Part shown: positions 27,878 through 44,447 of the stretch, one piece after another
How positions within the stretch are numbered: the first letter of the stretch is position 1
Layout: each line of letters begins with the position of its first letter
Made by a program: the position numbers and the translations under genes
Source of the DNA: Oscillospiraceae bacterium
GTDB taxonomy: Bacteria; Bacillota; Clostridia; Oscillospirales; Oscillospiraceae
Direction of reading: 5' to 3'
Assembly: GCA_017406005.1 (NCBI GenBank)
Contig: JAFQZI010000129.1
Coordinates: forward strand, 1-50,996
Length of the DNA: 50,996 bases
The notes under the pieces: model-generated
The model's database searches: none
Told to the model about the DNA's origin: nothing
Seen by the model: only the letters and a program-made list of their open reading frames with translations

Positions 27878-29146
27878 ATGACAACCGTTTCAGTAAAACA
27901 CAGCTCCGGATGGGGAATCCTGAAAGAGTTTGTCATATGCATATTTATTGCGGGTGTTCTGCTGACGATGGATCGTTGTCTGGAGAATCTTTACTTCTAT
28001 TTCCTCTATGACACCGGGAAGCGTATTCTGGACCTCTTCATGGCTTTATATCTTCACGCTCACCGTTGGTTTACCATAATCATTCCTGTTTCTTTTCTCC
28101 TATGGGTATGTTACTGGAGATTTCATGTACGATATGGTTTACTATTACCCATAGGCATTTATTATATACTCAGTCTGCTTACTTCCCTCTCAGGAGAAGG
28201 ATTTCCCCCACGATGGCTCAACACGATGTTGTATCCTATGGCCATGATTTTGTTTGCGACGATTATGTGTTCCACTGAGCGAGGAGTAAGACGTTTTTGC
28301 CGTGTCGGATGTGATTTATATATTGTGTTGCTGGTACTCAACATGGCTTTCACACTCTTCCCACAACTCTATCACCTTTTCACGGACTGGGAGCCAGATT
28401 ATTTCATTTCTGCCGATAACCTGACAGGGTTTCCACTTCTCTTCGGGGCAATGTTAGCCCTGCTGGACCGGCATTTCAACCATAACAATGTACGGTGTGC
28501 GATCTATCTGGTGCTGTTTTTTGTGAATCAAGTGCTGATTCACTGCGGGAGTGCACTGATTGCAGGTGTGATTCTGGCAGGATATCTTGCTATTCCACAA
28601 GTAAAAAGGTGGGCACAGAACAAACCACTTTCCCTATTAATTGCAGTTTCAGTAGTTCTGTGTTTGCTGTTATGCGGGTTTGCAATCATTTACTGCAACT
28701 TCATCAGAGTGGAAGAGACCGTCGATGTATTTCTGCATCTGATCCATAAAGAATCCGTCTATGTACGGTTTATCATCTGGAACGGGACAGCAGCCCTTAT
28801 TGCCAGAAAGCCTCTGTTCGGATACGGGCTGGGCGAAAAAGCAGAGTTTTTCAACAGGCCGAAGACAACCCTCAGCTATAATGCACACAACGCCTATCTT
28901 CAGACGCTGTATGAGGGCGGACTGGTCACGACGTGTGCAGCGCTGGCAGTGTTGTTTTTGACATCGAGATTTCTGAAAAAGTGCAGGGACAGGGAACTAT
29001 CCGGATTATTCACAGTTCTGATTTTTGCGGAACTGATTATGATGGAGTCATCCATCACAAGCTGGTTTACCTGGTATCCTGTTTTTCTGATTGCACAGAT
29101 CGGCACTTTGCTGTGTTCTCTCCCAAGAGAAGGAGAAACAACATGA
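27878..29146 (+). CDS. O-antigen ligase/polymerase (Wzy)-like membrane protein
   Basis: A 422-residue protein with about ten membrane helices. The diagnostic region is near residues 305-345: ARKPLFGYGLGEKAEFF followed by YNAHNAYLQTLYEGGLV, the periplasmic loop of the O-antigen ligase/polymerase superfamily, whose His and Arg act in joining polyprenyl-linked glycans. Firmicute members polymerise or ligate exopolysaccharide, teichuronic or S-layer-type glycans on the outer face of the membrane. TGGAGG precedes ATG 27878. The stop overlaps the next gene's start (ATGA), so it works with the DUF6056-like protein. No flippase or other glycosyltransferases are adjacent. Confidence 0.85.
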   Translation: MTTVSVKHSSGWGILKEFVICIFIAGVLLTMDRCLENLYFYFLYDTGKRILDLFMALYLHAHRWFTIIIPVSFLLWVCYWRFHVRYGLLLPIGIYYILSLLTSLSGEGFPPRWLNTMLYPMAMILFATIMCSTERGVRRFCRVGCDLYIVLLVLNMAFTLFPQLYHLFTDWEPDYFISADNLTGFPLLFGAMLALLDRHFNHNNVRCAIYLVLFFVNQVLIHCGSALIAGVILAGYLAIPQVKRWAQNKPLSLLIAVSVVLCLLLCGFAIIYCNFIRVEETVDVFLHLIHKESVYVRFIIWNGTAALIARKPLFGYGLGEKAEFFNRPKTTLSYNAHNAYLQTLYEGGLVTTCAALAVLFLTSRFLKKCRDRELSGLFTVLIFAELIMMESSITSWFTWYPVFLIAQIGTLLCSLPREGETT

Positions 29147-30603
29147 AAAAGAATGCATTAGGGGCGAGAATCCCAAGCTGGGCCATTCTAATCGCTATGC
29201 TGGCAATACTAGGGATGATACTGATCCCTATGCTTGTGATAGCACACTACGATGTGCCTGCAGCAGACGACTTCAGCTTCAGCTGTGAGACGCATGCAGC
29301 TGTTATGTCAGGAGGATCGATTTTCGACGTAATAGCCGGGGCTGTGGAAAAAGCGGGAAAAGTATACTACACCTGGCAGGGCTCCTTCTCAGCGATTTTC
29401 CTGATGGCGTTTCAGCCGGCCGTATGGGGCCTTAGGCATTATGCACTTACCACGTGGATTATGGTATTTTCACTTCTGGGTAGTCTTTTCTATTTCTATG
29501 ACAGACTGCTACACGGAGTATTCGGGACATCAAAAAGCATTGCAGGAATCATCGCAGCCGTGACAAGCACTGCATGCACACAGTTTCTCCCCTCCCCGAA
29601 TCAGAGTTTTTACTGGTATAACGGAGCAGTATATTACACGTTTACTTTCGCTGTGATGCTCGTTTTGTTTGGCATCATGATCGGATATATGTTGCATGAT
29701 GGGGCACTGCGGATTGTGGCAGCCGCTTGTCTATGTGTAATTATCGGCGGCAGCAACTATATTACAGCGTTGTTTACAAGCATTTGCGGAACGCTGCTGA
29801 TTACCATTCTGATCTTGAAAAAAGATAAACGATTTCTTTGTCTTCTGATCCCTTACACAATTCTGCTTGCAGCGTTTGCCATAAGTATTATTGCTCCAGG
29901 GAATGCCGTGCGCCAAGAAAATTTCTCTGATCATCCGGGGGCAGTTGAGGCGGTTTTGCTTTCGTTTCACGCCGCAGGAAGAAATGCACTACATTGGGCA
30001 GATCTTCGGTTTGCGGCTTTTATGACTTTCCTGATTCCTATTTTATGGGAAGGTGCAGGGCAGAGCAATTTCTCCTTCCGTTTTCCGGGTGCTGCAAGTG
30101 CTTTCAGCTTCTGTCTTTTTGCCTCTCTCTTCACCCCACATCTCTTTGCAACGGGGAGTGACGGGCCAGAGCGGCTGAAAAACATTCTCTATTTTGCCTT
30201 TCTGATGTTCAGTGTTCTGAACCTTTTCTGGTGGCTCGGCTGGATGAAAGGAAAACGAAAAAGATCCCGCAGCACAAAGAACGGGATCTCTTTCGGGACG
30301 TTGGCTGGGTTTTCCACCGGGGCGTTGCTATGCCTTGGATGCGCCATGGTTTTCTTTCATGGAACGGCGACATCCGTTGCCGCATTGAGCGAGTTGAGAA
30401 GCGGTGAAGCAGGAGGCTATTTTACACAGGCATTGGAACGGCAGGAAATACTTGAAAACCCGGAGATAAAAGACTGTGAATTCTCTCCCTACACCAACAT
30501 GCCATATATTCTTTACTTTACGGACATGACCGAAGACCCGGCAGCTTACGAGAATCAGGACACAGCAAACTTTTACAGTAAGAACTCGATTGTTGTTCGA
30601 TAA
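29143..30603 (+). CDS. DUF6056-like polytopic membrane protein
   Basis: A 486-residue membrane protein with about eleven hydrophobic segments. After TM1 comes HYDVPAADDFSFSC, an acidic DD motif on the outer face like that of GT-C glycosyltransferases, and then YYTWQGSFSAIFLMAF, as in proteins gathered under DUF6056 (Gtr/GT-C-like, polyprenyl-phosphate sugar donors). From memory of the family, not from a search. Start ATG 29143 has AAGGAG at proper spacing and overlaps the upstream stop by four bases; a longer frame from 28933 runs inside the ligase gene and is rejected. Likely role: modifying a glycan made with the upstream ligase/polymerase. Ends in a terminator. Confidence 0.72.
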   Translation: MKKNALGARIPSWAILIAMLAILGMILIPMLVIAHYDVPAADDFSFSCETHAAVMSGGSIFDVIAGAVEKAGKVYYTWQGSFSAIFLMAFQPAVWGLRHYALTTWIMVFSLLGSLFYFYDRLLHGVFGTSKSIAGIIAAVTSTACTQFLPSPNQSFYWYNGAVYYTFTFAVMLVLFGIMIGYMLHDGALRIVAAACLCVIIGGSNYITALFTSICGTLLITILILKKDKRFLCLLIPYTILLAAFAISIIAPGNAVRQENFSDHPGAVEAVLLSFHAAGRNALHWADLRFAAFMTFLIPILWEGAGQSNFSFRFPGAASAFSFCLFASLFTPHLFATGSDGPERLKNILYFAFLMFSVLNLFWWLGWMKGKRKRSRSTKNGISFGTLAGFSTGALLCLGCAMVFFHGTATSVAALSELRSGEAGGYFTQALERQEILENPEIKDCEFSPYTNMPYILYFTDMTEDPAAYENQDTANFYSKNSIVVR

Positions 30604-30636: not shown

Positions 30637-30663
30637 CCTGCAGGTCATCTGCAGGTTCTTTTT
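30637..30663 (+). terminator. Terminator of the ligase/DUF6056 operon
   Basis: CCTGCAG (30637-30643) pairs with CTGCAGG (30649-30655), then TTCTTTTT. It overlaps the 3' end of the converging permease gene. Confidence 0.82.
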
Positions 30664-32237
30664 ATGCGGTAGATTCCTAACTTCATTATCACATTCACGA
30701 CAAGAATCAAAAGTGATATAAAGGCTGCACACTCCAGCTGCATCTGTCCTTCAAACTGGGGAATCATTAAGGATACCGGTTTATTGGATACATTTGCCAG
30801 AAAAGAGACTGCAGAGATCGTCATCATGCAGTTCACAAAAAAGTAACTGACCATTTCAAGAATGGTGCCCATCGACTGGGGAAGAATGATATCGAATATG
30901 ATCCTTGATCGGCGGATCCCCATGGTTGAGCCGACGTCTTCCAGATTCTCATTGATTTTCCCGAAGGTATTATAAATCATGAGATAGGGAGAGGCGAAAA
31001 AGTGTATTGAATTAACAAAAACAAGAATCGTAAATGTGCCATAAAGCAACGTGCCCTTGAAAAACATGATATAGGACAAGCCAAGCACTATCCCTGGGAT
31101 TGCAAGGGATGTGATTGACATCAGATGAAGAACATAAGATATCCTTGTCTTTTTTCTCGCTACCAGATATGCATTCATCACGGCAAGTATACTCCCCAGC
31201 ACCGATACAAGTACGGCTATAATCAGGGAATTTTTCAGATATCTCCATGCCCCCATTTGAACGGCTTGCCAAATGTTTTCCAACGAGAAAGAATTATCGA
31301 TCGGATATTTCTTTACAAAGCCAAGCACCGTAAATGAACCGATCGGAAGGAAAATGCACAGAATCACTAGGAAAATTACTATATAGGCAAACTTGTCACG
31401 CAATGGGTTTTCTTTGATGGAAAAGGGTTTACCTACATAGCCGGACCTGCCTTTTTCTCTCCCGGCAATGTCGAGAACACAGGCAACTATTGCAGGCGTC
31501 AGGAGGATCATGCCTATGACACTGCCTTTTCCGAAATCCAGCATGCCAATGACATCCTGATACATCATTACAGGCAAAGTGATGTACTTCCCTCCAATCA
31601 TAAGAGGGACTCCGTAATCTGTGACAATCATCGTAAATATCGCAAAAAACACAGAAATCAAAGGTTTTTTCAGGTAAGGCAGCGTTATAGCAAACAATTT
31701 GTCCTTTGATGACATACCCATCGTGGCAGCTGCTTCATAGGGAGTTCCGTCTTCATACTGCAAGACATCATACAGCATCAGATAGGCAACGGGAAAAGAA
31801 TAAAGCACCGACCCCATCACAATGCCAGGGAAGCCATAAATTCCTCCCTGCATTCCAAGTAGTCTGGCAATCCATCCATTCACGCCAAGGATAATGATAA
31901 GACCCATACCGTGAGAAATTGAAGGAATCAGCATGGGAACACATAACAGCGTATTGATCACTGTCTTGTGCCTGACGTTTGTTCTTGCCACACACCAGGA
32001 AAGTATGCCTGCCAAGCCGACGGATATCAACGTGGCACAGGAAGAAGCAGACAAAGACTGGAGCAGAGCCTTTTTAAATTTTCTCGCAGAAAGGATCGCA
32101 GATACATTCACTGTTGTCATAGTTGACAACATTTTCCCAAGCGGAAAGATAATAAATAACAGCCAGAAAACACATAGAAGGATTTTTAACCCTTCTGAGA
32201 ACTGCCATGTTCTCCTTTTCAATACCAGGTTATTCAT
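30645..32237 (-). CDS. ABC transporter permease, double-domain (Fe3+/phosphonate/polyamine type)
   Basis: A 530-residue permease with about twelve membrane helices and two complete inner-membrane-component domains in one chain. The EAA loops that contact the ATPase are visible: YEAAATMGMSSKDKLFAITLPYLKKP in the first half and NLEDVGSTMGIRRSRIIFDIILPQ in the second. Such fused permeases belong to FbpB-like ferric, or PhnU/PhnV-like 2-aminoethylphosphonate systems. The start overlaps the ATPase stop by four bases (ATGA at 32237-32234). Third gene of the substrate-binding protein, ATPase, permease operon. Confidence 0.9.
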   Translation of the reverse strand: MNNLVLKRRTWQFSEGLKILLCVFWLLFIIFPLGKMLSTMTTVNVSAILSARKFKKALLQSLSASSCATLISVGLAGILSWCVARTNVRHKTVINTLLCVPMLIPSISHGMGLIIILGVNGWIARLLGMQGGIYGFPGIVMGSVLYSFPVAYLMLYDVLQYEDGTPYEAAATMGMSSKDKLFAITLPYLKKPLISVFFAIFTMIVTDYGVPLMIGGKYITLPVMMYQDVIGMLDFGKGSVIGMILLTPAIVACVLDIAGREKGRSGYVGKPFSIKENPLRDKFAYIVIFLVILCIFLPIGSFTVLGFVKKYPIDNSFSLENIWQAVQMGAWRYLKNSLIIAVLVSVLGSILAVMNAYLVARKKTRISYVLHLMSITSLAIPGIVLGLSYIMFFKGTLLYGTFTILVFVNSIHFFASPYLMIYNTFGKINENLEDVGSTMGIRRSRIIFDIILPQSMGTILEMVSYFFVNCMMTISAVSFLANVSNKPVSLMIPQFEGQMQLECAAFISLLILVVNVIMKLGIYRIKRTCR

Positions 32238-33025
32238 AATCGCATTCCCTCTGTTTTATGTCTTGCGAATCGGACCAGAGAATCGATTTTTATGTTGATA
32301 TTATTGATCACAAAGTTTACAACAAACTCATCAGCAGGATGGTCAATGATATGATCAGGCGTGTCGATCTGGTGGATACAACCTTCCTTCATAACCATAA
32401 TCCTGTCAGATAAGGAAAAAGCTTCCTCCTGATCATGTGTTATATAAATCATTGTGGTGCCGAATTTTCGCTGCAGATCTTTCAGTTCACTTCTGAGAGT
32501 TAGACGCGTATCGACATCCAGAGCCGACATGGGTTCGTCAAGGAGAATAACATCAGGATTCAATGCAAGAGTACGGGCAATTGCAACTCTCTGCTGCTGA
32601 CCACCGGACAACTCACACGGTTTTTTATCCTGATGATCTGACAGTCCTACTAGATCAAGCATCTCTTTCGCTTTCCGATTTGCATTTCCTTTCGTATATA
32701 ATCCCTTTGTCGCAGAACTTTTTCTTAAAGCATATTCTACATTTTTCAAAGCCGACATATTTTCAAACAAAGCATAATTCTGAAAAACAAAACCCATATT
32801 TCTTTTTTCAGGGGCGAGCGCAGTAATATTTTTCCCGTCTTTCAAAATTGTTCCACATTCCGGAGATTCAAGTCCGATCAAAATCCTCAGGAGTGATGTC
32901 TTCCCGCATCCTGATGAACCCAAAACAGATAAGAACTCTCCTGTATGGACTGTAAAACTGACATCATGCAGCACCTGCAGTTTATCAAAAGCTTTACTCA
33001 GGTGTTTCACTTCAAGCTTTTCCAT
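32234..33025 (-). CDS. ABC transporter ATP-binding protein (PotA/FbpC/PhnT-like)
   Basis: A 263-residue ATPase: Walker A GSSGCGKTS, Q-loop FVFQNYALFENMSA, signature LSGGQQQRVAIA, Walker B VILLDEPMSALDVDTR, H-loop YITHDQEEAFS. The long C-terminal TOBE domain of PotA/FbpC types is reduced to about 30 residues. ATG 33025 is chosen for its CAGGAG site; an upstream ATG (33085) would extend into the terminator hairpin that separates this gene from the substrate-binding protein gene. Coupled to the permease by an ATGA overlap. Confidence 0.92.
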   Translation of the reverse strand: MEKLEVKHLSKAFDKLQVLHDVSFTVHTGEFLSVLGSSGCGKTSLLRILIGLESPECGTILKDGKNITALAPEKRNMGFVFQNYALFENMSALKNVEYALRKSSATKGLYTKGNANRKAKEMLDLVGLSDHQDKKPCELSGGQQQRVAIARTLALNPDVILLDEPMSALDVDTRLTLRSELKDLQRKFGTTMIYITHDQEEAFSLSDRIMVMKEGCIHQIDTPDHIIDHPADEFVVNFVINNINIKIDSLVRFARHKTEGMRL

Positions 33026-33049
33026 TTTTTTCTCCTGAATCATACTACT

Positions 33050-33080
33050 AAAAAAGGAGGAAGGGATCCCCTTCCTTCTT
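33050..33080 (-). terminator. Intra-operon terminator/attenuator after the substrate-binding protein gene
   Basis: Twelve pairs with one G-U (33054-33065 with 33069-33080; AAGAAGGAAGGG/CCCTTCCTCCTT) around a 3-base loop, followed on the minus strand by TTTTTT. Two bases after the stop at 33082 and 25 bases before the ATPase start, so it should make the binding protein more abundant than the membrane parts. Confidence 0.85.
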
Positions 33081-33081
33081 C

Positions 33082-34077
33082 TCAATACTCCCAGTTATCC
33101 AGCAACCTTGTTTTTTCTTCCGTGGTATTGCCGGACATATCCGCATAAGGAATGTCCTTTGGATAATTGGGCACATCATTTTCCTGCTCTATGAAGACCT
33201 GTTCCGGATAGAAGAGGGCTTTGTCTTCCGCAACCAGTGTACTGTAGAAGAAATCAAACACTTCCCTGACCGCTTTACGTTCCTGCTTTCCCTCCGGCAT
33301 CGCATATCCATAAAGAGAATATGGTGAACCTTCCTCAAAGAAAACTATCTTCAGATCTGCACCATCATTCACGGCTGTAACAGCCTGAGCCGTCATCCCA
33401 AGGCCTATCCCGACTTCTCCCTGGACAAGAGCATTCACCGGACCTGAACCGGAAGAAGTGAACTGCAGAACATTTTCTGCAAGACCATCAAAATAGTCAA
33501 ACGCCTCATCTTCGCCCCATGCATTCACAAGCATCTTAACAAACATATATCCGGTTCCAGAAGATTTCGGATTCGGCATAGAAATAAGATTCTTATACTC
33601 CGGTTTCAGAAGATCCTGAAAAGTCTCCGGTTCTTCAAGGCCTTTTTCCTCCAGCACTTTCGAATTGATGATTATTGCACCACCGTTTCTGGTCGCTGCG
33701 AGATATTTCCCGCACGCGACTTTACAGTCCTCCACATAGACAGACTGGTCATACGAAGAAACATCTGCCAGATACTGCTCCACAAGCCCGGCATAACTAA
33801 AATCCAGATCATAAAAGATATCCATATCTGTATCCGTGCCTTCAGCTGCGAGCTTTGCAGCAAGGTTTCCTGTGGGCATGTATTCAATCGTAATGGAATA
33901 TTCCGGGAACTCCTCCTGCAGGCGCTTCATAAAATATTCATTCCGGTACTCCTCAGCTCCCGAATAGATCACAACCCTCGTATCGTCATCAGCGAAGGCA
34001 CCACTTACGAGAGTGGAAGACAGCAAAGCGATCATTATCACAAGTAGACAAAGCTTTTCCCATTTCATAGTTTTCAT
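33082..34077 (-). CDS. ABC transporter substrate-binding protein, family 1/AfuA-PhnS-like
   Basis: A 331-residue exported binding protein. The signal peptide (1 to about 29, cleavage near AFA-DDD) has no lipobox cysteine. The mature protein begins RVVIYSGAEEYRNEYFMKRLQEEFP, as in the ferric/AEP/polyamine-binding group, and later has AATRNGGAIIINSKVLEE and LISMPNPKSSGTGYMFV. GTGY and the absence of the paired tyrosines typical of ferric-binding proteins are more in keeping with phosphonate or other small anion/zwitterion ligands, but that is not decisive. GGAGG lies eight bases before ATG 34077. First gene of the importer operon, with a strong promoter set in a palindrome. Confidence 0.88.
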   Translation of the reverse strand: MKTMKWEKLCLLVIMIALLSSTLVSGAFADDDTRVVIYSGAEEYRNEYFMKRLQEEFPEYSITIEYMPTGNLAAKLAAEGTDTDMDIFYDLDFSYAGLVEQYLADVSSYDQSVYVEDCKVACGKYLAATRNGGAIIINSKVLEEKGLEEPETFQDLLKPEYKNLISMPNPKSSGTGYMFVKMLVNAWGEDEAFDYFDGLAENVLQFTSSGSGPVNALVQGEVGIGLGMTAQAVTAVNDGADLKIVFFEEGSPYSLYGYAMPEGKQERKAVREVFDFFYSTLVAEDKALFYPEQVFIEQENDVPNYPKDIPYADMSGNTTEEKTRLLDNWEY

Positions 34078-34091
34078 TTACAAAACCTCCA

Positions 34092-34138
34092 TTTGTTCAT
34101 TTTAAGCTAATTATACTTAATATTTGAACAAAAGTCAA
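34092..34138 (-). promoter_or_regulatory. Importer promoter embedded in a long palindrome (candidate operator)
   Basis: Minus strand TTGACT (34138-34133), 17-base spacer, TATAAT (34115-34110). The -10 lies in the 9-base centre of an inverted repeat: TTTGTTCATTTTAAG (34092-34106) against CTTAATATTTGAACAAA (34116-34132). TTTGTTCA/TGAACAAA and TTAAG/CTTAA are exact. A repressor bound here would block the promoter. Confidence 0.72.
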
Positions 34139-34160
34139 TGTCAAAAACATCTGATTTCTT

Positions 34161-34199
34161 AAATAAAGAGAATGCCACTCCCAAAAAGCGGCATTCTCT
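34161..34199 (-). terminator. Terminator of the SGNH/YidC-transferase/cytidylyltransferase operon
   Basis: Ten perfect pairs (34167-34176 with 34190-34199; AGAGAATGCC/GGCATTCTCT), 13-base loop, then TTTATTT on the minus strand, seven bases after the stop at 34206. Confidence 0.85.
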
Positions 34200-34205
34200 G
34201 AACAA

Positions 34206-35096
34206 TTACACATTATAGGTCGGATCAACAGCCTTTAGTTCCTTAAATGTATCAATTTCAACGATATCTTCCTGTGTACATTCCCGTATGCTAATCTGAT
34301 AGTGATCCTTAAAGACGCTGAAAACTGTCTGATCCCAGTAAAGCTCTTTCCCGCCGGGCATCTCGTAAGCGCGCTTCAGATCATCTGCCAGCCGTGCACC
34401 GTCTTTGGGACTCCAGAAGGAAATCCCTATTTCCTGATAACAATTCATACCACCAATTTTCTGTTCACGAATCAGGCCGTCTTTCACGATGAAGCACCAG
34501 TCATCCGTACGTTCCCGATAAATACCAAGATAGTTGGACTGATACTGATATTTCTTTACTAACTCTTTGCGATAGAGAAGCAGGTCCGCCTCAAAAACAT
34601 AAGCTCCCTGAAGCAGATACCTTGCGCACATAGCAGATGAAATATTATTGGCATCATTATAGGCTATGTTTTCCAAGAATTTCAGCATGGGATATTTGTA
34701 CAATAGCTGATCAAACTGTTCGGCAAGATATCCTCGCACAATATAGATTTCATCAATGCCAGCCTGGAGGCAGGCATCGATCAGCCCATCTATTATTCTT
34801 TCTCCGTGGACACGGATCAATGGTTTCGGCGTATTAAATGTCAGCGGGACCATCCGTGTTCCAAATCCTGCAGCAATAAAAACCGCTCTTCTAACCTTGT
34901 ATGGTTCCAACAGCTCATACCCTAACGGGGTAACCCTGCCCTCCGAAAGAGCTTTCATTTCTACCAGTTCTTTTACCGTTCTATTAATCAGGCCCAAAGA
35001 ATAGTCCGTCCGCTGTTCCATCTGACGCTGCGTCATCACTTTTTCTTCTGCGGCAAGCAATTCCAGGATATCAAATTGTCTCTTTGTCAATGCCAA
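34206..35096 (-). CDS. Winged-helix/LicC-like cytidylyltransferase fusion
   Basis: A 296-residue cytoplasmic protein in two parts. Residues 1-65 are a winged helix (TKRQFDILELLAAEEKVMTQRQMEQ, then a recognition helix SLGLINRTVKELVEM). From 69 comes a nucleotidyltransferase domain: FIAAGFGTRMVPLTFNTPKPL (NTP loop and metal site), DEIYIVRGY, YNDANNISSAMCARYLL and FEADLLL. This is the LicC pattern, CTP:phosphocholine cytidylyltransferase; related PntC enzymes use 2-aminoethylphosphonate. It would supply a CDP/CMP-activated headgroup to the transferase encoded six bases upstream. The fused DNA-binding domain suggests it also senses substrate and could regulate the neighbouring importer. Weak ribosome site, likely translated by coupling. 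Confidence 0.85.
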   Translation of the reverse strand: MALTKRQFDILELLAAEEKVMTQRQMEQRTDYSLGLINRTVKELVEMKALSEGRVTPLGYELLEPYKVRRAVFIAAGFGTRMVPLTFNTPKPLIRVHGERIIDGLIDACLQAGIDEIYIVRGYLAEQFDQLLYKYPMLKFLENIAYNDANNISSAMCARYLLQGAYVFEADLLLYRKELVKKYQYQSNYLGIYRERTDDWCFIVKDGLIREQKIGGMNCYQEIGISFWSPKDGARLADDLKRAYEMPGGKELYWDQTVFSVFKDHYQISIRECTQEDIVEIDTFKELKAVDPTYNV

Positions 35097-35102
35097 CTTT
35101 TT

Positions 35103-36923
35103 TCACCCCTGTTTCGTCATCTCTATTAATCTTCGAATCAAATAATCTGAGCCGACTAAAGCTGATCTTCCAATATTGTAAAGAGACTGCTCTCTCAGCA
35201 CGGCAATACTCTCAGGTGAAAAGGTGCTCTCATGCAGAAGCCTGTCCACTGAGGGAATCAGTTTTTCCATATCATCCGGCTGCAGTGAAATTCCTATTTT
35301 ATCACGTATCAAAATATCAAACGGCTCAACCGGAATATCCCGATAATCCGGATTCATCACTTTCATCGGTGTGTTGACGAACAGGCATGGCTTCAATGTC
35401 GTAAAAGAATACTCATAGGCGATCCCTGACCAGTCCGTTATCAGAATATCAGCATTGAAAACCGTACTGTTTGATGAGAAATCTTCCTGAAGGAGAAAAT
35501 TATCAGAAGAAGAATACCGTACTCGCAAGGCTCTTATCTTTTCCTTATTATGACGTACGTACTGAGGATGAGGCCGCACAACAATCCTTAATCGCTGTGG
35601 AAGCAAATATTCAAGCATTTCATCCAGACAGGAGTCCATAATATTGTCTTCCTGCCAGGATGGAGCAATCAGGATTACGGGTGGGTCATTGATGACAGGA
35701 TGTTGTTCGGAATAGGCACGAATCATATTATCGATCAAAGCATAGCCGTACTTTACCAGCACCTTTTCCTTCAGGCCGTATACCCTCTCCTGAGCACGAA
35801 TCTCTTCATAGACAAAGTCATTGGTGCAGAACACTGTATCAAATGCATCAAGCGCCCCCTTCTGATACATCAGATTGATGCTGCCCATCCCATGATCCAT
35901 ATACACATACTCAACAGTATTCCGCACCATGGAGCGTTTGATATAATACTTCTGCAGGTCCGGGGTCGTCATCACAACGATGTCCGCATCCATGCGCATC
36001 ATCAGAACCATCAGTTTTTCTTCGATGTAGTAGGTATGGAAGCTGTCACTTTCCAGCGAAAAAACCTCATCCTCAGTGTCTGACGAAATGTAGTGGATGA
36101 TAATATCCGTACGCCGCAAGATGGTCTCTATCACATCACGAAAATACTTATAAAAGCCGTTTTTCTCGGAATAGAATACAATCTGCTTATTCGGGAATGC
36201 AAGGAACCGCTTATAGTCTGCCTTCTCTCGTCGCACAAGCTCTTTTGACCGCTTGTGTTTCGTGACGGTAGACATTTTTTCAACCTTTTCCAGCTCTTCC
36301 CTGCTCTCGGCAAGTGCTTCATAATCAATATACTTTTTCGGGCTTATCCAGGCATTGAGCAGATACATCTGGGCAGTTGCCATCAAATTGCTGCAAATCC
36401 AGTAAAAAGCAACCCCCTTTGAGACAAACAGCCCAAGATAGAGTGATAGTGAGACAGAAAACACGAGCGTTCCCCACTGGTTTGCCTTACTCTGTTCTGA
36501 CTGCAATACATTCGATCTGTTCTGTGCAAGGCACATTATCAGAGCCGATAACGCCGCCAGAACAGGCATATAGAGCGGAGAACCCTCTTCCGATGCCGGG
36601 ATTGCCTTCACCACGCCCATCAGGATAACAAGCTGGAGAAGCGTTGGGATCAGATCGAGCATCGGGTGGTAGTTTTCCCGCTTGTACAGGTGGTACTGTT
36701 CTTCCGAAATCTTATCTTTGTTGCCAAAGTATTTTGCCTTGATGCGGTTCATCTCCGGGTACATCTTCACCATTTTAATGGAGTTTTTCTGTACCAGCAC
36801 AGAGACCGGCAAGAGGAGAATCTTCGTAAGCAGCGTAAAGGCGACAATGGCCCACCAGAAGTTACCGGTAAGGCCATTGCACCAATTCAGCAGGATGCCG
36901 AAAAATCTTCCCAGATATTCCAT
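35103..36923 (-). CDS. YidC/Oxa1-like domain fused to a CDP-glycerol glycerophosphotransferase-type (TagB/TagF) domain
   Basis: A 606-residue bifunctional-looking protein. Residues 1 to about 200 follow YidC: WWAIVAFTLLTKILLLPVS, a charged cytoplasmic hairpin (MVKMYPEMNRIKAKYFGNKD), YHPMLDLIPTLLQLVILMGVV and two further helices ending FYWICSNLMATAQMYLL. The groove arginine of canonical YidC appears as Lys34. A charged linker leads to a GT-B-like transferase from about 245: YVYMDHGMGSIN, ILIAPSWQEDN, RIVVRPHPQYVRH, LITDWSGIAYEYSF, as in enzymes moving glycerol- or ribitol-phosphate from CDP donors. It sits three bases after the SGNH gene and six before the cytidylyltransferase, so donor synthesis and transfer are encoded together. 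Not a housekeeping insertase. Confidence 0.88.
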   Translation of the reverse strand: MEYLGRFFGILLNWCNGLTGNFWWAIVAFTLLTKILLLPVSVLVQKNSIKMVKMYPEMNRIKAKYFGNKDKISEEQYHLYKRENYHPMLDLIPTLLQLVILMGVVKAIPASEEGSPLYMPVLAALSALIMCLAQNRSNVLQSEQSKANQWGTLVFSVSLSLYLGLFVSKGVAFYWICSNLMATAQMYLLNAWISPKKYIDYEALAESREELEKVEKMSTVTKHKRSKELVRREKADYKRFLAFPNKQIVFYSEKNGFYKYFRDVIETILRRTDIIIHYISSDTEDEVFSLESDSFHTYYIEEKLMVLMMRMDADIVVMTTPDLQKYYIKRSMVRNTVEYVYMDHGMGSINLMYQKGALDAFDTVFCTNDFVYEEIRAQERVYGLKEKVLVKYGYALIDNMIRAYSEQHPVINDPPVILIAPSWQEDNIMDSCLDEMLEYLLPQRLRIVVRPHPQYVRHNKEKIRALRVRYSSSDNFLLQEDFSSNSTVFNADILITDWSGIAYEYSFTTLKPCLFVNTPMKVMNPDYRDIPVEPFDILIRDKIGISLQPDDMEKLIPSVDRLLHESTFSPESIAVLREQSLYNIGRSALVGSDYLIRRLIEMTKQG

Positions 36924-36926
36924 AAA

Positions 36927-38177
36927 TCAATTTTCTTCCTTATAGTCTGTAAAAAGTATTCCGAAAAAGCTGTCTGCATGTTCCTTCTGCAGAAACCGGA
37001 TCCGGAGATCGCCCCGGAATGTGTCCGGAGATTCAGATACTCTGCTGATTTTCATCAGGTTAAAACCGATGCTCATATAATCTTCTTCCGAATAGTAAAG
37101 TTCATCGTTACGGAATATTTCAAAAAGGTTTTCTCCCGGACAACGGCTGCGGTTGATGCCGAGAATACCTTTCTGAGGCCGATCGAAGTGAATCGTCCAC
37201 TCCGTATCGCTGACCCTTGTAAAGTCACTCGACGGAAAATACCGGAAACTCTCATAGGGTAAAATGCCCTCTGTATCAAGCGGATCCGGCAATTCTCTGT
37301 CATAACGGTAGATTCGGCTGTCAAATATCTCACCGTTCTGCAAGACGTCGCGGATCATTCCGATTTTCCGGTTGAATTCCTCCGCCGTGCTGGTACGAAT
37401 CACTTCCTCCACCGTGCAGGCATAAATATCCTGGCCGATACCGTTCGGGTGGACTCCGTCAGCGGAGAGAGCCTCATATGAATAGCCGCTGTCTTCAAAA
37501 GCTTTGATGGTATCGGCAAGCTGGAGACCATAATGCCCGGATATTTTTATGATATCCTGCATTTTTTCGGTATACTCGCGCTGGGAACTCTCCACTACAG
37601 CAATAACTGACGGAAGCTCATTTTTGATCAGGATTTCCCGGATCAGCGCTTCATAATCCGCTGCAAACCCCTGAGGGACATCATTCTGCCCGTAGCAGAC
37701 GATGACAAGGTCATAGGCAATACCGTCCTCCAGAAGCTTTTCGCTGACGAACCCGCTGTAGCTGGTATTGCTCCCTAGAGAAATATTCCTGATGGTACAG
37801 CTGACCAGATAGTTATCTTCGATCCATGCCGCAACATCGTTTGTCCACGGCATGGCGCCGATAGAATCTCCAACGACGAGAAGACGGATATCTTCCCCAC
37901 AGGCAAGCTTCTGATAGGCATTCAGCCCTCCCCCGGAAGCGACAACACTGTCAAGCTCCTTTAACAGGTCTTCCCGAAGCGCCGCAATTTCCGGCTGAGG
38001 GTCTGGTTCTTTCATCATCCATGCCCCGGAAAGATTCTGAAGAGCCTCAATATCATCGTTCTGGCGTTTTTCATGGTGAAGCCATTTATAGCCGGCCGCT
38101 GCAGCGCCTGCGAGAAAAACAAGCACCAGAAACACCGCAAGAACAATCGCGAGGGATCTATTCCCAGCTTTTTTCAT
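36927..38177 (-). CDS. Membrane-anchored SGNH/GDSL hydrolase
   Basis: About 416 residues: a short cytoplasmic N-terminus, one membrane anchor (SLAIVLAVFLVLVFLAG), then an extracellular esterase. SGNH blocks: block I LLVVGDSIGAMPW, block II around ISLGSNTSYSG, block III VIVCYGQNDVP and block V GVHPNGIGQDIYA, so Ser, Gly, Asn and His are present. About 150 C-terminal residues form a separate beta domain. Such enzymes deacetylate or de-esterify surface polysaccharides and teichoic polymers. The start is uncertain: ATG 38177 follows the small gene by seven bases, ATG 38222 would overlap it by 38; neither has a good ribosome site. Three bases before the YidC/transferase gene. Confidence 0.82.
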   Translation of the reverse strand: MKKAGNRSLAIVLAVFLVLVFLAGAAAAGYKWLHHEKRQNDDIEALQNLSGAWMMKEPDPQPEIAALREDLLKELDSVVASGGGLNAYQKLACGEDIRLLVVGDSIGAMPWTNDVAAWIEDNYLVSCTIRNISLGSNTSYSGFVSEKLLEDGIAYDLVIVCYGQNDVPQGFAADYEALIREILIKNELPSVIAVVESSQREYTEKMQDIIKISGHYGLQLADTIKAFEDSGYSYEALSADGVHPNGIGQDIYACTVEEVIRTSTAEEFNRKIGMIRDVLQNGEIFDSRIYRYDRELPDPLDTEGILPYESFRYFPSSDFTRVSDTEWTIHFDRPQKGILGINRSRCPGENLFEIFRNDELYYSEEDYMSIGFNLMKISRVSESPDTFRGDLRIRFLQKEHADSFFGILFTDYKEEN

Positions 38178-38184
38178 AACAGGA

Positions 38185-38442
38185 TCAGAGATTTTCTTTC
38201 TGAGAAGCTTCCTGCTCCTCATCCTTCAGGTGAATTTCGCGCTTCGTGCCCTCTCCCTGTTCTTTTTTAAAAAAAGCCGCAATTTTATGACGAAAAACCG
38301 TGGCCAGCGCCCCGATTGCAACGACCACCGCCGCTATTGCCTGCGCCGTATACGTCACGGCAGAGGGATCAATATACTCTGCCGATGCACTGACAGTACA
38401 GATCACTGCAAAGCATACAAAATAGAAAATAAAACCGAACAT
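38185..38442 (-). CDS. Small membrane protein opening the transferase operon
   Basis: 85 residues: an N-terminal hydrophobic segment that may be a signal peptide (MFGFIFYFVCFAVICTVSASA), the phrase EYIDPSAVTYTAQAIAAVVVAIGALATVF forming a second helix, and a charged tail (KKEQGEGTKREIH). The YIDPSxxTY-plus-helix arrangement is one I recall from small Clostridial proteins near envelope phosphotransferase/sulfatase genes; function unknown. It is the first gene after a near-perfect promoter. Confidence 0.68.
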   Translation of the reverse strand: MFGFIFYFVCFAVICTVSASAEYIDPSAVTYTAQAIAAVVVAIGALATVFRHKIAAFFKKEQGEGTKREIHLKDEEQEASQKENL

Positions 38443-38478
38443 TTCCCCGTCCCCGCTTTTCTTTTCAAAATTGAAATC

Positions 38479-38507
38479 ATTTTACACATCTCCGTACCTT
38501 CTGTCAA
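38479..38507 (-). promoter_or_regulatory. Sigma-A promoter of the SGNH/YidC-transferase/cytidylyltransferase operon
   Basis: Minus strand TTGACA (38507-38502), 17-base spacer, TAAAAT (38484-38479), 36 bases before ATG 38442. One of the best promoters in the window, so this operon does not rely on read-through from polC. Confidence 0.82.
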
Positions 38508-38512
38508 GGCTG

Positions 38513-38560
38513 CTTCTTTTCTGAAGTCAGAAGAAACTTCTTTTCTGAAATCAGAAGAAA
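38513..38560. repeat. Two tandem 24-bp palindromic repeats
   Basis: Unit CTTCTTTTCTGAARTCAGAAGAAA occurs twice head to tail (38513-38536 and 38537-38560) with one base different, and each unit is itself near-palindromic (TTCTTTTCTGA / TCAGAAGAA). They lie between the sulfatase stop (38568) and the next promoter, as two successive small hairpins or a double binding site. Confidence 0.75.
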
Positions 38561-38567
38561 CCGGCTG

Positions 38568-40295
38568 TCAGCTCCTCGGGAGCCGCTCTTTCGAGACAGC
38601 GTTGCCGGAATAAAGAATATCCCAGTCATTACCCGTGAGCGTCCAGTTGGAGAGATCGGCAGCATCGCCCCGGATGCTGTATTCACGAAGGGCAATTTCT
38701 CCATCGCCCCAGGATCGCTGCGCAGTATAGTAATAGATCCTCTCACGCTCTTCCCCTTCTTCGTGCGTGTATAGGGCAGGTGCATAGGAAGAGCTGTCAA
38801 TCCCAAGCTGCTCCAGAACCGTTGCAAACAGATCGTCATGACATACAGGGGCATCGGAGGTCTCTATCGGCTTGCTGCTGTCTGCCGCAACAGGTTTGAA
38901 AAGCATCACGCAGCAGGGAGGACTGTGAAGGACAAGATCCTCCGCTTCATTCTGGTTGCCGTGGTCCGCTGTCACAATGATGGCGGTATTATCATAGATC
39001 CCGCACTCTTTCAGGAAGCGGATATAGGCACTGAGGATCAGAAAATCGCCGCGGGCGGCGTCCGTCTGGGAAGCGTTGGGATCATATTCCGCTTTCTCAT
39101 TCATATAGCATCCGGGATGCGGGCCAAACAGATGATAAAGGCGAAATGTTGATGGATAGCTTTCATTCACCGTAACCTGTTCGCTGAGGAGCCTGTCGTA
39201 AAACTCAAAATCGTTGTTGGTCATCGTAAAGTAATGGTCTGGGAGCACTTTCATCACATTCCGGTTGATCGGATCCGGTGTGTAATAGAAAAGCGGCTTC
39301 AGCAGATAGGGCATTTCCCTGTACCCACCCAGGCGGATCATGGCTTTCACGAGATTTTTCACCGACAGGATCGAAAACGCACCGCTATCATACGATGTTA
39401 CATTATCGACCTTCGAATACGCATCTCTATCCAGATAATTCAGGGATGTATAAAGACGGATATCCGTTTCGGCATCATCCATCGCTGGGAGAAACGTTCC
39501 GTTCTCATAGGCCTGGCGGATGTATTCCCGTTCCGGAAGATCAAAATAGCACTTTTCCTCTGTCAGAAGATACGGGAGAGCTGGATACGTCCGGCTGTAT
39601 TTGGATGTGCAGTTCCGGTAATTGGTAAAACCGGTATACTCTTTGAACAGATCCGGATCCGCTTCAAGCGCTGCATCGACATATTCACGGTCACAGGTGT
39701 CGAGAATAAAATAGAGAACATTCCTTCCGGGAGAAAGCTCAAATTCGCCCTGTGTGGAAAGATACAGATCCTTGTTCAGATCTTCTTTGGCAAGAGACAT
39801 TCTTGTGGAAATAAGCCCGGTACCCTGGATAATCAGCAGTGCTGCCGACACGAGGAGCAGCACCTCCCGCAGTTTTGCTTCCCCTGCATGACATTTCAGA
39901 AAGACGCAGAACAGCAGAAAGCAGACTGCAATCCCTGCCCACACGGCCAGATTCTTCAGTACTGTTTCTTGTGTGAAGGGGACATTCTCCCCCATCATCT
40001 CCATCATCTGGCCATTCAAAAAGAGCATCTGCACATAAAAGCAGATTCCCCCCAGCGTTGTAATCGCCGCAATCCAGAGCACCGCTTTCCCGGGGAGCAG
40101 CGCCTCGATCGCAGAAATTACCACCGCTATCCCGATTGCAACCGCAAGCATAATCCACCAGACATGGCGGACAGGAAACGTGAACTCTTCCAGGTTACGG
40201 AAAAAAACCTCCAGTGAGGAGAAGAACAACGCGGTCAACCAGAACAGGAGATTGGCTGACAGAGCTGTCAGAACTTTTTGGCTGTATTTTTTCAT
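38568..40295 (-). CDS. Membrane-bound sulfatase/alkaline-phosphatase superfamily protein (LtaS-like layout)
   Basis: A 575-residue protein with five N-terminal membrane helices (to about residue 165) and an extracellular hydrolase domain. ILDTCDREYVDAAL gives the first metal-binding Asp, NCTSKYSRTYPALPYLLT is where the nucleophile Thr/Ser should be, and VTADHGNQNEAED is the C-terminal Asp-His metal site. The layout is that of polyglycerol-phosphate synthases and phosphoethanolamine transferases, but sequence alone does not separate these. It starts 39 bases after polC without an intervening terminator, so it may share the polC transcript. Context suggests a role with the downstream polymer-modifying genes. 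Confidence 0.82.
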   Translation of the reverse strand: MKKYSQKVLTALSANLLFWLTALFFSSLEVFFRNLEEFTFPVRHVWWIMLAVAIGIAVVISAIEALLPGKAVLWIAAITTLGGICFYVQMLFLNGQMMEMMGENVPFTQETVLKNLAVWAGIAVCFLLFCVFLKCHAGEAKLREVLLLVSAALLIIQGTGLISTRMSLAKEDLNKDLYLSTQGEFELSPGRNVLYFILDTCDREYVDAALEADPDLFKEYTGFTNYRNCTSKYSRTYPALPYLLTEEKCYFDLPEREYIRQAYENGTFLPAMDDAETDIRLYTSLNYLDRDAYSKVDNVTSYDSGAFSILSVKNLVKAMIRLGGYREMPYLLKPLFYYTPDPINRNVMKVLPDHYFTMTNNDFEFYDRLLSEQVTVNESYPSTFRLYHLFGPHPGCYMNEKAEYDPNASQTDAARGDFLILSAYIRFLKECGIYDNTAIIVTADHGNQNEAEDLVLHSPPCCVMLFKPVAADSSKPIETSDAPVCHDDLFATVLEQLGIDSSSYAPALYTHEEGEERERIYYYTAQRSWGDGEIALREYSIRGDAADLSNWTLTGNDWDILYSGNAVSKERLPRS

Positions 40296-40334: not shown

Positions 40335-43300
40335 TCAAAAATCAAAGAGTGTGATCTGGCTGGTCTCCGGAAGAGAGCCCAGCGCACCAAGATCCTTCAG
40401 AATTTCAATATGCGTCTGGCTGACTTTGGGGCAAGCTGCAGCGACCTCTTCAATAGATACGAAATCCTTTCCCGACTCTCTGCACCGCACAAGATCAAGC
40501 GCCGCAGATTCTCCCAGGCCGGAGATCGATACGAACGGCGGCAGGAGCTTTCCGTCATCCGTGATGAGAAAATGTGTGGCATCGGAACGATAGAAATCGA
40601 TCGGAGCAAAAACAAGACCGCGCAAATTGAATTCATAGACTGCTTCCAGTGTGACGAGGAGATCCTCCTCATTTGCTGTGAGCTCGGATTTGCGGCGAAA
40701 TTCATTGATTTTCTTCCGCACGCTGTCGGTACCGCCTGTCATCATCTCCGCGTCAAACCCACCTTTCTGGCTACGGCGATAGAAGTAGGCACTGTAGAAA
40801 GCAAGAGGTTTATGCACTTTGAACCAGGCGATGCGGAAAGCCATCATGACATAAGCAACAGCATGTGCCTTCGGGAAGAGGTAGGCAATTTTACGAGCAG
40901 ACTCTATCCACCATTCAGGCACCTGCATGGAATGCATCTGCTCCTCGGCATCCCCGGGGAATTTGCCGCTCCTTTTTACCTTCCCTTTGCGGACATCTTC
41001 CATGGTTTTAAAAGCGAGAGCGGGTTCCATGCCTTTGCTCATAAGATAGATCATGATATCGTCACGGCAGCCAATGGTTTCGTTTACCGATGCGATACCG
41101 CCGGTGACAAGGTCGCGGATATTGCCCGCCCATACATCTGTACCGTGTGAAAAGCCTGAAAGCCTGACCAGCGTGTCAAACTGCCTCGGCTGTGTATCCA
41201 CCAGCATCTGGCGAGTAAAGGGCGTACCGAATTCCGGGACTCCGATAGAGCCGGTTTTTCCGATGATGGGATCGTCATCCGGAAGGCCGAGCGCCGAGGG
41301 CGAAGTGAAAATCGACATCGTCTCCGGATCAGAGAGGGAGATCGTCTTTGCATCGACCCCGGTCATATCCTCCATCATGCGAATCATCGTCGGGTCATCG
41401 TGGCCAAGTTCATCGAGTTTGAGAAGGTTGGCTTCCATGCAGTGGTATTCAAAATGCGTCGTGATGATATCAGAATTCGGGTCATCCGCAGGATGCTGCA
41501 CCGGGCAGAAATCCGTCACATCCATATCCTGCGGAACGACAACAAGACCGCCGGGATGCTGGCCGGTCGTGCGCTTGACCCCGACGAGGCCGAGCGCGAG
41601 CCTGTTTTCTTCCGCTTTGGTAGCTTTGATGTCACGCTCTTCCAGATACTTTTTCACATAGCCATAAGCCGTCTTCTCCGCGAGCGTGCCGATGGTTCCA
41701 GCGCGGAAAACATGGTCGGACCCGAAAAGTTTTTCCGTGTATTTATGCGCCTGTGCCTGGTATTCTCCGGAGAAGTTCAGGTCGATATCCGGGGTTTTTT
41801 CATTGCCCGGGAAGCCGAGGAAGGTTTCAAACGGGATATCAAAGCCGTCCCGATTCATTGGAACTCCACATTCGGGGCAGTTTTTTTCGGGCATATCTGC
41901 CCCGCACCCATAGGAGTGGTCCGTTACAAACTCACTGTGGCAGCATTTCGGGCATACGTAATGAGGTGGAAGGGAATTGACCTCCGTGATGCCGGACATA
42001 AAGGCGACGATCGAAGAGCCCACACTGCCCCGGCTACCGACCAGATAGCCGTGCTCCAGCGAATTTTCCACCAGCTTCTGTGCTGACATATAGATCACAT
42101 CATAATGATGGTCAAGAATAGTCTCCAGCTCGGTATCGACACGGCTCTGGACAATATCCGGAGGATTCTCGCCGTAAATCCGGTGCATCTTTTCATAGAC
42201 GAGATCTCGGAGCTGCTCAGCGGAATGATCAATTTTAGGCGGAAAAAGATCCTTCGGCAGAAGTTCAATTTCTTCACACGTATCGGCGATGGCGCACGGA
42301 GCATCGATCACGATTTCTTTTGCAATCTCTTCTCCGAGATACCGGAACTCCTCCAGCATCTCACCGGTGGTGCGGAAGAAGAGAGGATTGGAACGGTCAC
42401 AGTCAGGATACTTCTGCGCAGCAAGCAGAATATGGCGGTACTGTTCATCTTCCGCGTCAAGGAAGTGCACATCAGACGCTGCAACGATGGGTTTGCCGAG
42501 GCGCTTGCCGAGGTCATAGATCCTGCGGTTCCAGGCCTGCAGCTCCCCCTCATCCCTTGCCTTTCCGTTTTCTATCAGATACGCGTTGTTGCAGAGCGGC
42601 TGGATTTCAAGATAGTCATAATCCGCCGCTATCTTTTCCAGATGTTCATCGCTCTCCCCTCGTATGATCGCATCATACAGCTCTCCCATTGCACAGGCAG
42701 AACCGACAATCAGCCCCTCACGACAGCGCATCAGCATGCTTTTGGGCACGATCGGCGTGCGATGGTAATACTTGAGATAAGATTGGGATATCAGCTCATA
42801 AAGGTTTTTGAGCCCACGCTTGTTCTTCACCAGAAGAATCATATGATGGCTTCTGCCGGATTCCATTCTCTGCATAGAGCGGCAGACACCTTCAATATCA
42901 TCGATGGTTTTTGCGCCTCGCGCACGGAGCATGGGGATAAACTTCCCCATGATGCGCTGCACCACCGTGGCATCATCGCTCGCACGATGGTGGTTGAATT
43001 TGGGAAGATCCAGATGTTTTGACACAACATCGAGCTTATGGGTTTTCAGTTCCGGCAGGAGTGCGCGGGACATGGCCAGGGTGTCCAGCACAACGGGTGT
43101 ATAACGAATGCCGTGCCTGGAGGCAGCCGCCCCGAGAAAACTCATATCAAAAGAGGCATTATGGGCAATTACCGGTCGGTCACCGGCAAAGGCAATAAAT
43201 GCTCGCAAGGCCTCCTCTTCCGAAAGGGCAGAAGCAACGTCGGAATCCCGAATCCCGGTAAGCTCCGTGATTCTTTCGGGGATATGCATCCCGGGGTTGA

Positions 43301-44369: not shown

Positions 44370-44447
44370 AATCAAAACCTCCGCCGGAGAATAGGCATCC
44401 AAATGCGAAACTGCCTCTGCATTTATGGTAAGTTTTTTGCGTGAAAT

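Follow-up and report, generated by a model that had tools for sequence, protein, structure and literature searches.

Phosphonyl tailoring of surface glycans by the Pnt system is the closest described counterpart of the locus analysed here. As described by Rice et al. 2019 (PMC6697681), it uses a LicC-type nucleotidyltransferase (NTase), PntC, to provide CMP-phosphonate for surface glycans, and residues E104 and E196 of the T. denticola enzyme contact the amine of 2-aminoethylphosphonate (AEP); the same account calls the tailoring steps that follow Ppm enigmatic and supplies PntC, and the words "transporter" and "YidC" are absent from its main text. AEP uptake is represented by AepXVW, or PhnS2-T2-U2, which PMC8316502 describes as a substrate-binding protein (SBP) of the SBP_bac_6 family, an ATPase and a single fused permease. 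In the Lic-1 pathway (LicA-LicB-LicC-LicD), import, activation with CTP and transfer are likewise combined.

The locus lies in a window of 50,996 nucleotides (the whole stretch analysed, contig JAFQZI010000129.1 of assembly GCA_017406005.1, from an Oscillospiraceae bacterium) and resembles each of these systems in part. It shares with Pnt a LicC-type NTase with glutamate at the first amine site, and relatives of its proteins adjoin Ppm, Ppd and AEPT; unlike in Pnt, the genome has no Ppm match, import of the headgroup is proposed, and the candidate transferase is a YidC-TagF protein rather than LicD. The window importer has the SBP-ATPase-fused permease composition and the gene order of the AEP-catabolic operons of S. 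medicae, S. meliloti and Shinella, to which its SBP is 27-28%, its permease 30-31% and its ATPase 46-48% identical, but it adjoins a cytidylyltransferase, not AEP catabolism, and falls below the NCBIfam cut-offs. The likeness to Lic-1 extends to the overall logic and the LicC-like enzyme, whereas the importer is an ABC system that would carry a phosphorus-bearing headgroup, and neither LicD (PF04991) nor choline kinase (PF01633) has a match anywhere in the assembly, so that the lack of both genes noted in a preliminary description of this DNA extends beyond the window.

Our best reading is that the locus is a variant of known phosphonyl tailoring in which the new element is a headgroup that is imported rather than self-made; on balance, we consider it probable that this salvage form leads from AEP import through CMP-AEP to the cell surface. 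The ABC importer would take up a zwitterionic headgroup already bearing phosphorus, most likely AEP or else a close aminophosphonate, and, because such a substrate brings its own phosphorus, a kinase would be unnecessary. The winged-helix cytidylyltransferase would couple AEP with CTP to yield CMP-AEP; the TagF-like domain, which the YidC-like domain would anchor to the membrane, would move the headgroup onto a lipid or lipid-linked glycan; and the alkaline-phosphatase-superfamily enzyme, putatively on the outer face, may either hand the headgroup to the final polymer or remove it.

Layout of the locus

All eight genes, every one of those named in the preliminary description among them, were confirmed on the minus strand, the small membrane protein, previously given without coordinates, being an 85-aa open reading frame at 38442-38185. 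They are arranged as two conserved blocks: block 1 comprises the YidC-TagF transferase, the small membrane protein, the alkaline-phosphatase-superfamily enzyme, the SGNH hydrolase and the LicC/PntC-type cytidylyltransferase, and block 2 comprises the SBP, ATPase and fused permease of the ABC importer. The features, all on the minus strand, are as follows.

38568..40295, minus: membrane alkaline-phosphatase-superfamily ("sulfatase"-type) enzyme (Pfam Sulfatase E 5e-4, below cut-off)
38479..38507, minus: promoter-like site, 11/12, preceding the small protein-SGNH-transferase-NTase genes (consensus match only)
38185..38442, minus: small protein, 85 aa, two hydrophobic segments by hydropathy; conserved neighbour of the transferase
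36927..38222, minus: SGNH/GDSL hydrolase (Pfam Lipase_GDSL_2; a start at about 38177 is likelier)
35103..36923, minus: YidC-like + TagF-like transferase (Pfam 60KD_IMP + Glyphos_transf); candidate CMP-AEP transferase
34206..35096, minus: winged-helix + LicC/PntC-type cytidylyltransferase (Pfam NTP_transferase; alignments)
34167..34199, minus: terminator-like hairpin, 15 pairs, 3' of the cytidylyltransferase
34110..34138, minus: promoter-like site, 11/12, preceding the importer genes (consensus match only)
33082..34077, minus: SBP, organophosphate/phosphonate class, PhnS2-like (NCBIfam TIGR03261 E 2e-48, below cut-off)
about 32234..33025, minus: ABC ATPase, PhnT2-like (TIGR03265 E 7e-95, below cut-off; an upstream TTG start at 33085 is possible)
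30645..32237, minus: ABC permease with both domains fused in one chain, PhnU2-like (TIGR03262, below cut-off at E 1.5e-107)

The eight genes are probably not a single operon, and the importer resembles a transcription unit of its own, because the hairpin at 34199-34167 and the promoter match at 34138 part it from the cytidylyltransferase; the promoter-like sites come from consensus scans and are no more frequent in the region than in shuffles (20 vs 16.5 +/- 3.9). The relatives of the source bacterium are animal-gut dwellers.

Identity of the headgroup

For each importer subunit, the best-scoring model is that of the putative AEP transporter, all three below the equivalog cut-off (165.1 bits against 392.75 for the SBP, TIGR03261; 318.2 against 457.7 for the ATPase, TIGR03265; 360.5 against 593.25 for the permease, TIGR03262). 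The permease scores 220-232 bits against the permeases of the three AEP operons vs 120 against a single permease of the AfuB type, a ranking shared by the four further importer-linked permeases that were tested. For the ATPase, the values are 228-231 bits vs 217 for the one AfuABC-type set compared, and the SBP reaches 112-121 bits with the AEP-operon SBPs, 133 with a further phn-linked SBP and 116 with a single AfuA-type SBP. In a fold search, the closest relatives of the SBP are the phosphate-ester binders AfuA, P5PA and VcA0625, and the solved AEP binder 4r6y ranks 33rd. The sub-threshold model scores, an SBP no nearer to the AEP-operon type than to AfuA, and this low rank all speak against AEP as the imported substrate.

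The window NTase carries the nucleotidyltransferase signature GXG(T/S)RX4-8PK as GFGTRMVPLTFNTPK. In a trimmed FastTree phylogeny, built with the NTases of L048, L052, L068, L077 and L193-L200 left out, it belongs to a 22-member clade (support 0.945) that mixes ppm-linked (L027, L050, L176-L178), ABC-importer-linked and APC-permease-linked enzymes, the neighbours having been typed with Pfam on single examples (APC permease at L128, amidohydrolase at L172). Its sister branch within the clade has a support of just 0.55-0.67; choline-kinase-fused NTases are placed elsewhere in the tree, and the CobD-labelled row L065_843 forms a very long branch and is probably misplaced. The nearest NTases that have a clear supply route adjoin PepM, Ppd and AEPT.

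Residue E169 of the window NTase aligns with E104 of T. denticola PntC, at the first amine site. This position is Glu in all 22 clade members, in each of the 44 rows labelled PEPM or AEPT_PepM and in 9/10 CobD-fused NTases, and in none of the nine choline-kinase-fused rows, where P, S, V, C or A is found; among the five BCCT-linked NTases, four have Asp and one (L077) has Ser. The second site (LicC D192 / PntC E196) is Asp in the window NTase, as in LicC, as well as in most ppm-linked NTases outside the clade; among the seven importer-linked genomes it is Asp in four and Gly in one, and the ppm-linked members of the clade have Glu. Such residues may reflect another substrate, or one of larger size, a reading tempered by the Asp of the ppm-linked enzymes outside the clade.

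PEP mutase (TIGR02320) has no match in the source assembly, a draft that is 93% complete with 6.6% contamination, or in the six other importer-linked genomes, vs 11/17 matches among the other NTase genomes tested, several of which were picked in the knowledge that PepM adjoined the NTase. This contrast fits the replacement of AEP synthesis.

These observations bear on the main competing substrate, phosphoethanolamine (or another phospho-amino-alcohol), which would be imported, converted to CDP-ethanolamine and placed as phosphoethanolamine on the acceptor. We regard this route as unlikely, if still worth weighing: the phosphate-ester binders nearest to the SBP fold would suit it, the first-site Glu is common to the NTase-CobD fusions, which are read as CDP-ethanolamine makers, and two NTases of the clade (L173, L180) adjoin a choline/ethanolamine-type kinase, which therefore makes phosphoethanolamine possible. 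Against it stand the closer similarity of the permease to those of AEP operons, the PepM, Ppd and AEPT genes beside the nearest NTases with a clear supply route, and the PEP mutase contrast. Import of phosphocholine (or glycerophosphocholine), with phosphocholine decoration by what would be a kinase-less lic pathway, appears improbable. Over the full domain, the closest solved relative of the window NTase is choline-type LicC, with which it shares aligned aromatic residues, some of them from the choline box, and loci L022 and L023, whose transferases come nearest to that of the window, carry a choline-kinase-fused NTase instead, but the window NTase has Glu169, not the Asp or the other residues of BCCT-linked and choline-kinase-fused enzymes, lies outside the clade of the latter, and is accompanied by a permease closer to those of AEP operons.

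Thus, among choline, ethanolamine and AEP, the headgroups put forward in the preliminary description, AEP is favoured because of the linkage of transferase relatives to PEP mutase (see below), the clade and Glu of the NTase, and the permease similarity.

Proposed link of import to activation

The importer adjoins an NTase 53-63% identical to that of the window in six other genomes, so that, including the window, the two share a cluster in seven genomes from five genera and two families; two of the six, G004 and G363, encode a permease that itself continues into an additional cytidylyltransferase domain, and both of these fused copies have GFGQR and fail the strict signature. Of 400 genomes of the family, 12 contain the SBP (E<=1e-30), 37 contain the NTase (E<=1e-40) and 7 contain both, a co-occurrence with a hypergeometric P of 1.9e-5 when relatedness is ignored and both searches are assumed, from coinciding handles, to cover the same 400 genomes; in six of these seven genomes, SBP and NTase lie in one gene cluster. 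NTase flanks were examined at 20 places and in G004, G363, G279 and G281, the low-identity remainder being left out. The clusters and fusions support the import, CTP activation and TagF-type transfer proposed in the preliminary description. Conservation of the gene order, for which a check was suggested there, holds for the sub-blocks, whereas the full eight-gene order occurs in the window only: the importer was not found in any of the 80 loci of transferase relatives, and in G008 and G176 importer and transferase are both present on different contigs, which makes the window the sole place with both blocks together.

That the importer is a mere phosphorus or nitrogen nutrient scavenger, by chance beside a surface-decoration locus, would agree with its own terminator- and promoter-like sites and with the 6/12 SBP genomes that have no NTase next door, but has little probability given the contiguity of importer and NTase kept in several genera, the permease-NTase fusions, and the lack of PhnJ in all six importer-linked genomes tested and of any PhnW above cut-off in the source genome, the catabolic routes covered being those of PhnJ and PhnW.

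Our searches of the accessible literature (most subscription journals and bioRxiv were outside reach) yielded neither a description of AEP uptake that feeds the making of CMP-AEP nor one of a transferase with YidC-TagF architecture. The permease-cytidylyltransferase fusions offer a link between import and activation that is open to direct testing. AEP salvage would give organisms without PEP mutase a route to phosphonate display and, if it is true, a genome that lacks PEP mutase need not imply a phosphonate-free surface.

Transferase and its partners

The transferase combines a YidC-like membrane domain (residues 1 to about 200; Pfam 60KD_IMP, E 2e-29) with a Glyphos_transf domain (E 5e-13, 49.3 bits vs gathering 22.1). 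Its AlphaFold model (pLDDT 83, pTM 0.63) has TagF 3l7k as the best PDB match in Foldseek (E 8e-9, TM 0.41/0.59); the YidC assignment comes from Pfam, and no YidC structure is among the 50 matches listed. The protein thus resembles the CDP-glycerol glycerophosphotransferases TagB and TagF in domain and fold, but differs from them in the N-terminal YidC-like domain, in the predicted CMP-AEP donor, for which the neighbouring NTase argues, and in the sulfatase-type region fused to it in six relatives. PEP mutase and a cytidylyltransferase, a pairing that constitutes a signature of AEP synthesis, occur within the fetched stretch of 44/80 loci of transferase relatives, where PEP mutase, Ppd and AEP transaminase are frequent companions; in the cluster checked, L050, PepM, Ppd and AEPT all exceed the curated cut-offs. 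Many relatives with the same transferase, it appears, make or phosphorylate their own headgroup. In 66 of the 80 loci, the gene immediately preceding that of the transferase encodes a homologue of the small protein.

The sulfatase-type enzyme consists, by hydropathy, of about five hydrophobic segments followed by a soluble domain, and its residues D199, T236, D444 and H445 (a threonine and a metal-ligand motif) are conserved in alignment A3. Its profile matches, over 70-130 residues, are to LtaS (weak) and to phosphonate monoester hydrolase chains. Extracellular phosphotransferases of the LtaS/EptA type share with it the alkaline-phosphatase superfamily, the conserved threonine and N-terminal hydrophobic segments, whereas the window enzyme is very divergent and regions homologous to it are fused to YidC or YidC-TagF. 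YidC-TagF-sulfatase-type triple fusions occur in six relatives (three of them checked with Pfam), and others have YidC-sulfatase fusions adjoining a separate TagF-like gene; such fusions suggest that the sulfatase-type enzyme and the transferase act as partners.

We know of no characterised CMP-AEP transferase, and the YidC-TagF protein, often with its sulfatase-type partner fused or adjoining, is a concrete and widespread candidate. A broader scenario, which we offer tentatively, is that bacteria wear the AEP of others, for instance in the rumen: the importer, sometimes fused to an NTase, would lead to CMP-AEP, the inner TagF-like domain would load a lipid carrier, passage through a YidC-like groove would cross the membrane, and the outer alkaline-phosphatase-superfamily domain would deliver the headgroup to a glycan, with a constant machine served by swapped supply modules (de novo AEP synthesis, salvage, choline kinase or CobD-like decarboxylase).

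The SGNH hydrolase, homologues of which are present among the 80 transferase loci in L022 and L023 only, matches Lipase_GDSL_2 (E 3e-8, 34.7 bits vs 32.9) and has one N-terminal hydrophobic segment.

Gene set and transferase family

All the genes that the preliminary description had read as an import, activation and transfer system were found in place by gene calls and domain searches, on the minus strand and in the order sulfatase-type enzyme (a membrane protein of the alkaline phosphatase superfamily), 85-aa membrane protein, SGNH hydrolase, YidC-TagF transferase, winged-helix cytidylyltransferase (NTase), substrate-binding protein (SBP), ATPase and fused permease. That reading is largely right, with the substrate and the acceptor as candidates only, and can be sharpened to a salvage version of phosphonyl tailoring, in which predicted 2-aminoethylphosphonate (AEP) would be handled by an unusual YidC-TagF transferase. 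Because the stretch between the NTase and the importer contains, by consensus scans, a hairpin resembling a terminator (34199-34167) and a promoter match of 11/12 (34138), the two are probably separate transcription units. Convergent with the importer genes are O-antigen-ligase-like (Wzy_C) and DUF6056 membrane proteins (27878-30603, plus strand), and Wzy_C homologues also lie near the L022 and L023 loci of relatives. Directly upstream of the cluster is a 1355-aa protein (40335-44402, minus strand), by its look presumably a PolC DNA polymerase; a similar-looking 1350-aa protein occupies this position in L022.

A search of genome_contigs (84,980 species, one genome each) with the YidC-TagF protein as query produced 137 pattern matches; 124 were confirmed, and the best 80, mostly titled Lachnospiraceae, were kept. 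Neighbor counts over these 80 loci, taken in fetched stretches many of which end at contig ends, make de novo AEP synthesis together with a PntC-like enzyme (an NTase resembling PntC, which makes CMP-AEP) the commonest partner of the family: PEP mutase and NTase occur in 44 of the 80, PEP mutase without NTase in one, AEP transaminase (AEPT) or Ppd only in four, an NTase fused to choline kinase or CobD in 10, NTase only in two, and none of these in 19. In L050, the one cluster checked, PepM (PEP mutase), Ppd and AEPT all exceed NCBIfam cut-offs. A homologue of the window's small membrane protein is encoded directly upstream of the YidC-TagF gene in 66 of the 80 loci.

The transferase seems to stay constant while the headgroup supply changes. 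Among the best 80, the closest relatives of the window transferase (L022, 84%; L023, 80%) show no ABC importer at their loci, its place being taken by a winged-helix-NTase-choline kinase fusion and an NCS1-type permease (L022:11888-15139, families checked; L023:12249-15492). At some other loci the NTase is fused, near the YidC-TagF gene, to a CobD-like (threonine-phosphate decarboxylase-like) domain (L025:11883-13694, family checked; similarly L026, L028, L032, L044, L097); we infer a route from phosphoserine to ethanolamine-phosphate, and the L025-type fusion would perhaps yield CDP-ethanolamine.

Identity of the headgroup

The best NCBIfam models for all three importer subunits are putative AEP transporters, with scores below cut-off. 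Permeases encoded in three operons for AEP catabolism (phnW-phnA-phnY in L201 and L202, phnA-phnY in L203) match the window permease at 220-232 bits, compared with 120 bits for one AfuB-type permease. The SBP scores do not separate the AEP-operon type from the AfuA type; in a fold search, AfuA, P5PA and VcA0625, titled sugar-phosphate or pyridoxal-phosphate binders, come closest, and the AEP binder 4r6y ranks 33rd. AepX, of the same Pfam family, is described as binding AEP with a Kd of 23 nM (PMC8316502).

In the account of Rice 2019 (PMC6697681), PntC E104 and E196 are placed by the AEP amine, LicC D105 and D192 are equivalent, and the aromatic box is present also in the AEP-specific Ari-PntC. 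By alignment, the window NTase has Glu at the first amine site and Asp at the second. Glu occupies the first site in 44/44 rows linked to ppm (PEP mutase) or AEPT, 15/15 linked to ABC or APC permeases and 9/10 CobD-fused rows, and in 0/9 choline-kinase-fused rows. Five importer-linked NTases carry Asp or Gly at the second site, where Glu is found in the ppm-linked NTases of the same clade; nevertheless, Asp is compatible with AEP, because most ppm-linked NTases outside the clade of the window NTase carry it. Two members of that clade adjoin a choline/ethanolamine-type kinase. We conclude that AEP or a close aminophosphonate is the first candidate, phosphoethanolamine the second and choline the third.

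Within the window's own assembly (completeness 93%, contamination 6.6%), a profile search gave no PEP mutase match, and no AEPT exceeded the cut-off (best, 56 of 360.8 bits). LicD and choline kinase, already noted as missing from the locus, have zero matches assembly-wide. The NTase is the single one of its kind, two further matches spanning 53 and 39 residues (E ~1e-6).

The L022 title names roe deer omasum, and several others name rumen. AEP is described as a marker of rumen protozoa that is present also in bacteria and feed (PMC4659874), so free AEP in the rumen is plausible, as context rather than evidence.

The proposed membrane machinery

The AlphaFold model of the YidC-TagF protein (pLDDT 83, pTM 0.63) has TagF as its best PDB match. 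YidC structures are absent from the 50 listed matches, which leaves Pfam (E 2e-29) as the basis of the YidC assignment. YidC-TagF-sulfatase triple fusions occur in six relatives (three checked by Pfam), and YidC is fused to a sulfatase-type region at three further loci (L166:11400-14054 and L195:4623-7361, Pfam Sulfatase over cut-off; L182, below). L174 encodes a similar long YidC protein with no second Pfam match, and a separate TagF-like gene adjoins each of these four. Asp199, Thr236, Asp444 and His445 of the window sulfatase-type protein are conserved across the nine full-length rows of the alignment; LtaS/EptA-type transferases typically use a threonine as nucleophile. The fusions and conserved residues suggest that a transferase on the inner face, a membrane domain and an enzyme on the outer face act together; speculatively, the YidC domain might carry a lipid-linked headgroup across the membrane.

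The importer-NTase block across genomes

Among 400 genomes of the family, 12 have the SBP (E<=1e-30) and 37 the NTase (E<=1e-40). Seven have both, an overlap with P 1.9e-5 if relatedness is disregarded; at the NTase threshold, the remaining five SBP genomes have no match. In six of the seven, the window's included, the SBP and NTase genes lie together in one cluster, ordered NTase-SBP-ATPase-permease in L184 (G156) and L126 (G279), SBP-ATPase-permease-NTase in L124 (G281), and with an intervening APC permease in L127 and L128 (G363, G004); in G084 the two genes lie on different contigs. In G363 and G004 the importer permease gene runs on into an NTase domain; the products, of 858 and 863 aa, match Pfam BPD_transp_1, in two parts, and NTP_transferase. 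These fusions (L127:4680-7256, L128:10561-13152) have the loop GFGQR, as opposed to GFG(T/S)R.

A class-level draw (391 genomes, NTase E<=1e-60) added eight NTase genomes. In L194 (G475), from another family, the order is SBP-ATPase-permease-NTase and a LicD gene adjoins it. Genes of AEP synthesis occur in three: the fetched stretches of L193 and L195 include PepM, and that of L198 includes AEPT and Ppd, with PepM elsewhere on the same contig. A choline-kinase-fused NTase is close by in L199 and L200, and no supply route was seen at L196 and L197. PEP mutase is present in 0/7 importer-linked genomes versus 11/17 other NTase genomes tested (Fisher 0.006), several of these 17 being already known to have PepM. 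PhnJ was found in 0/6 importer-linked genomes (the set without G475).

In nine genomes, two of them also with the ABC importer, the NTase adjoins an APC-type permease, possibly a second route of headgroup uptake (L165-L167, L169, L172, L174, L175, L127, L128; PF13520 checked in L128). A ~500-aa protein also recurs beside such NTases (L172:11536-13035, L173:6453-8030, L180:10732-12309, L199:3465-5033); it matches Pfam Amidohydro_3 in L172, and the other three copies are alike by eye.
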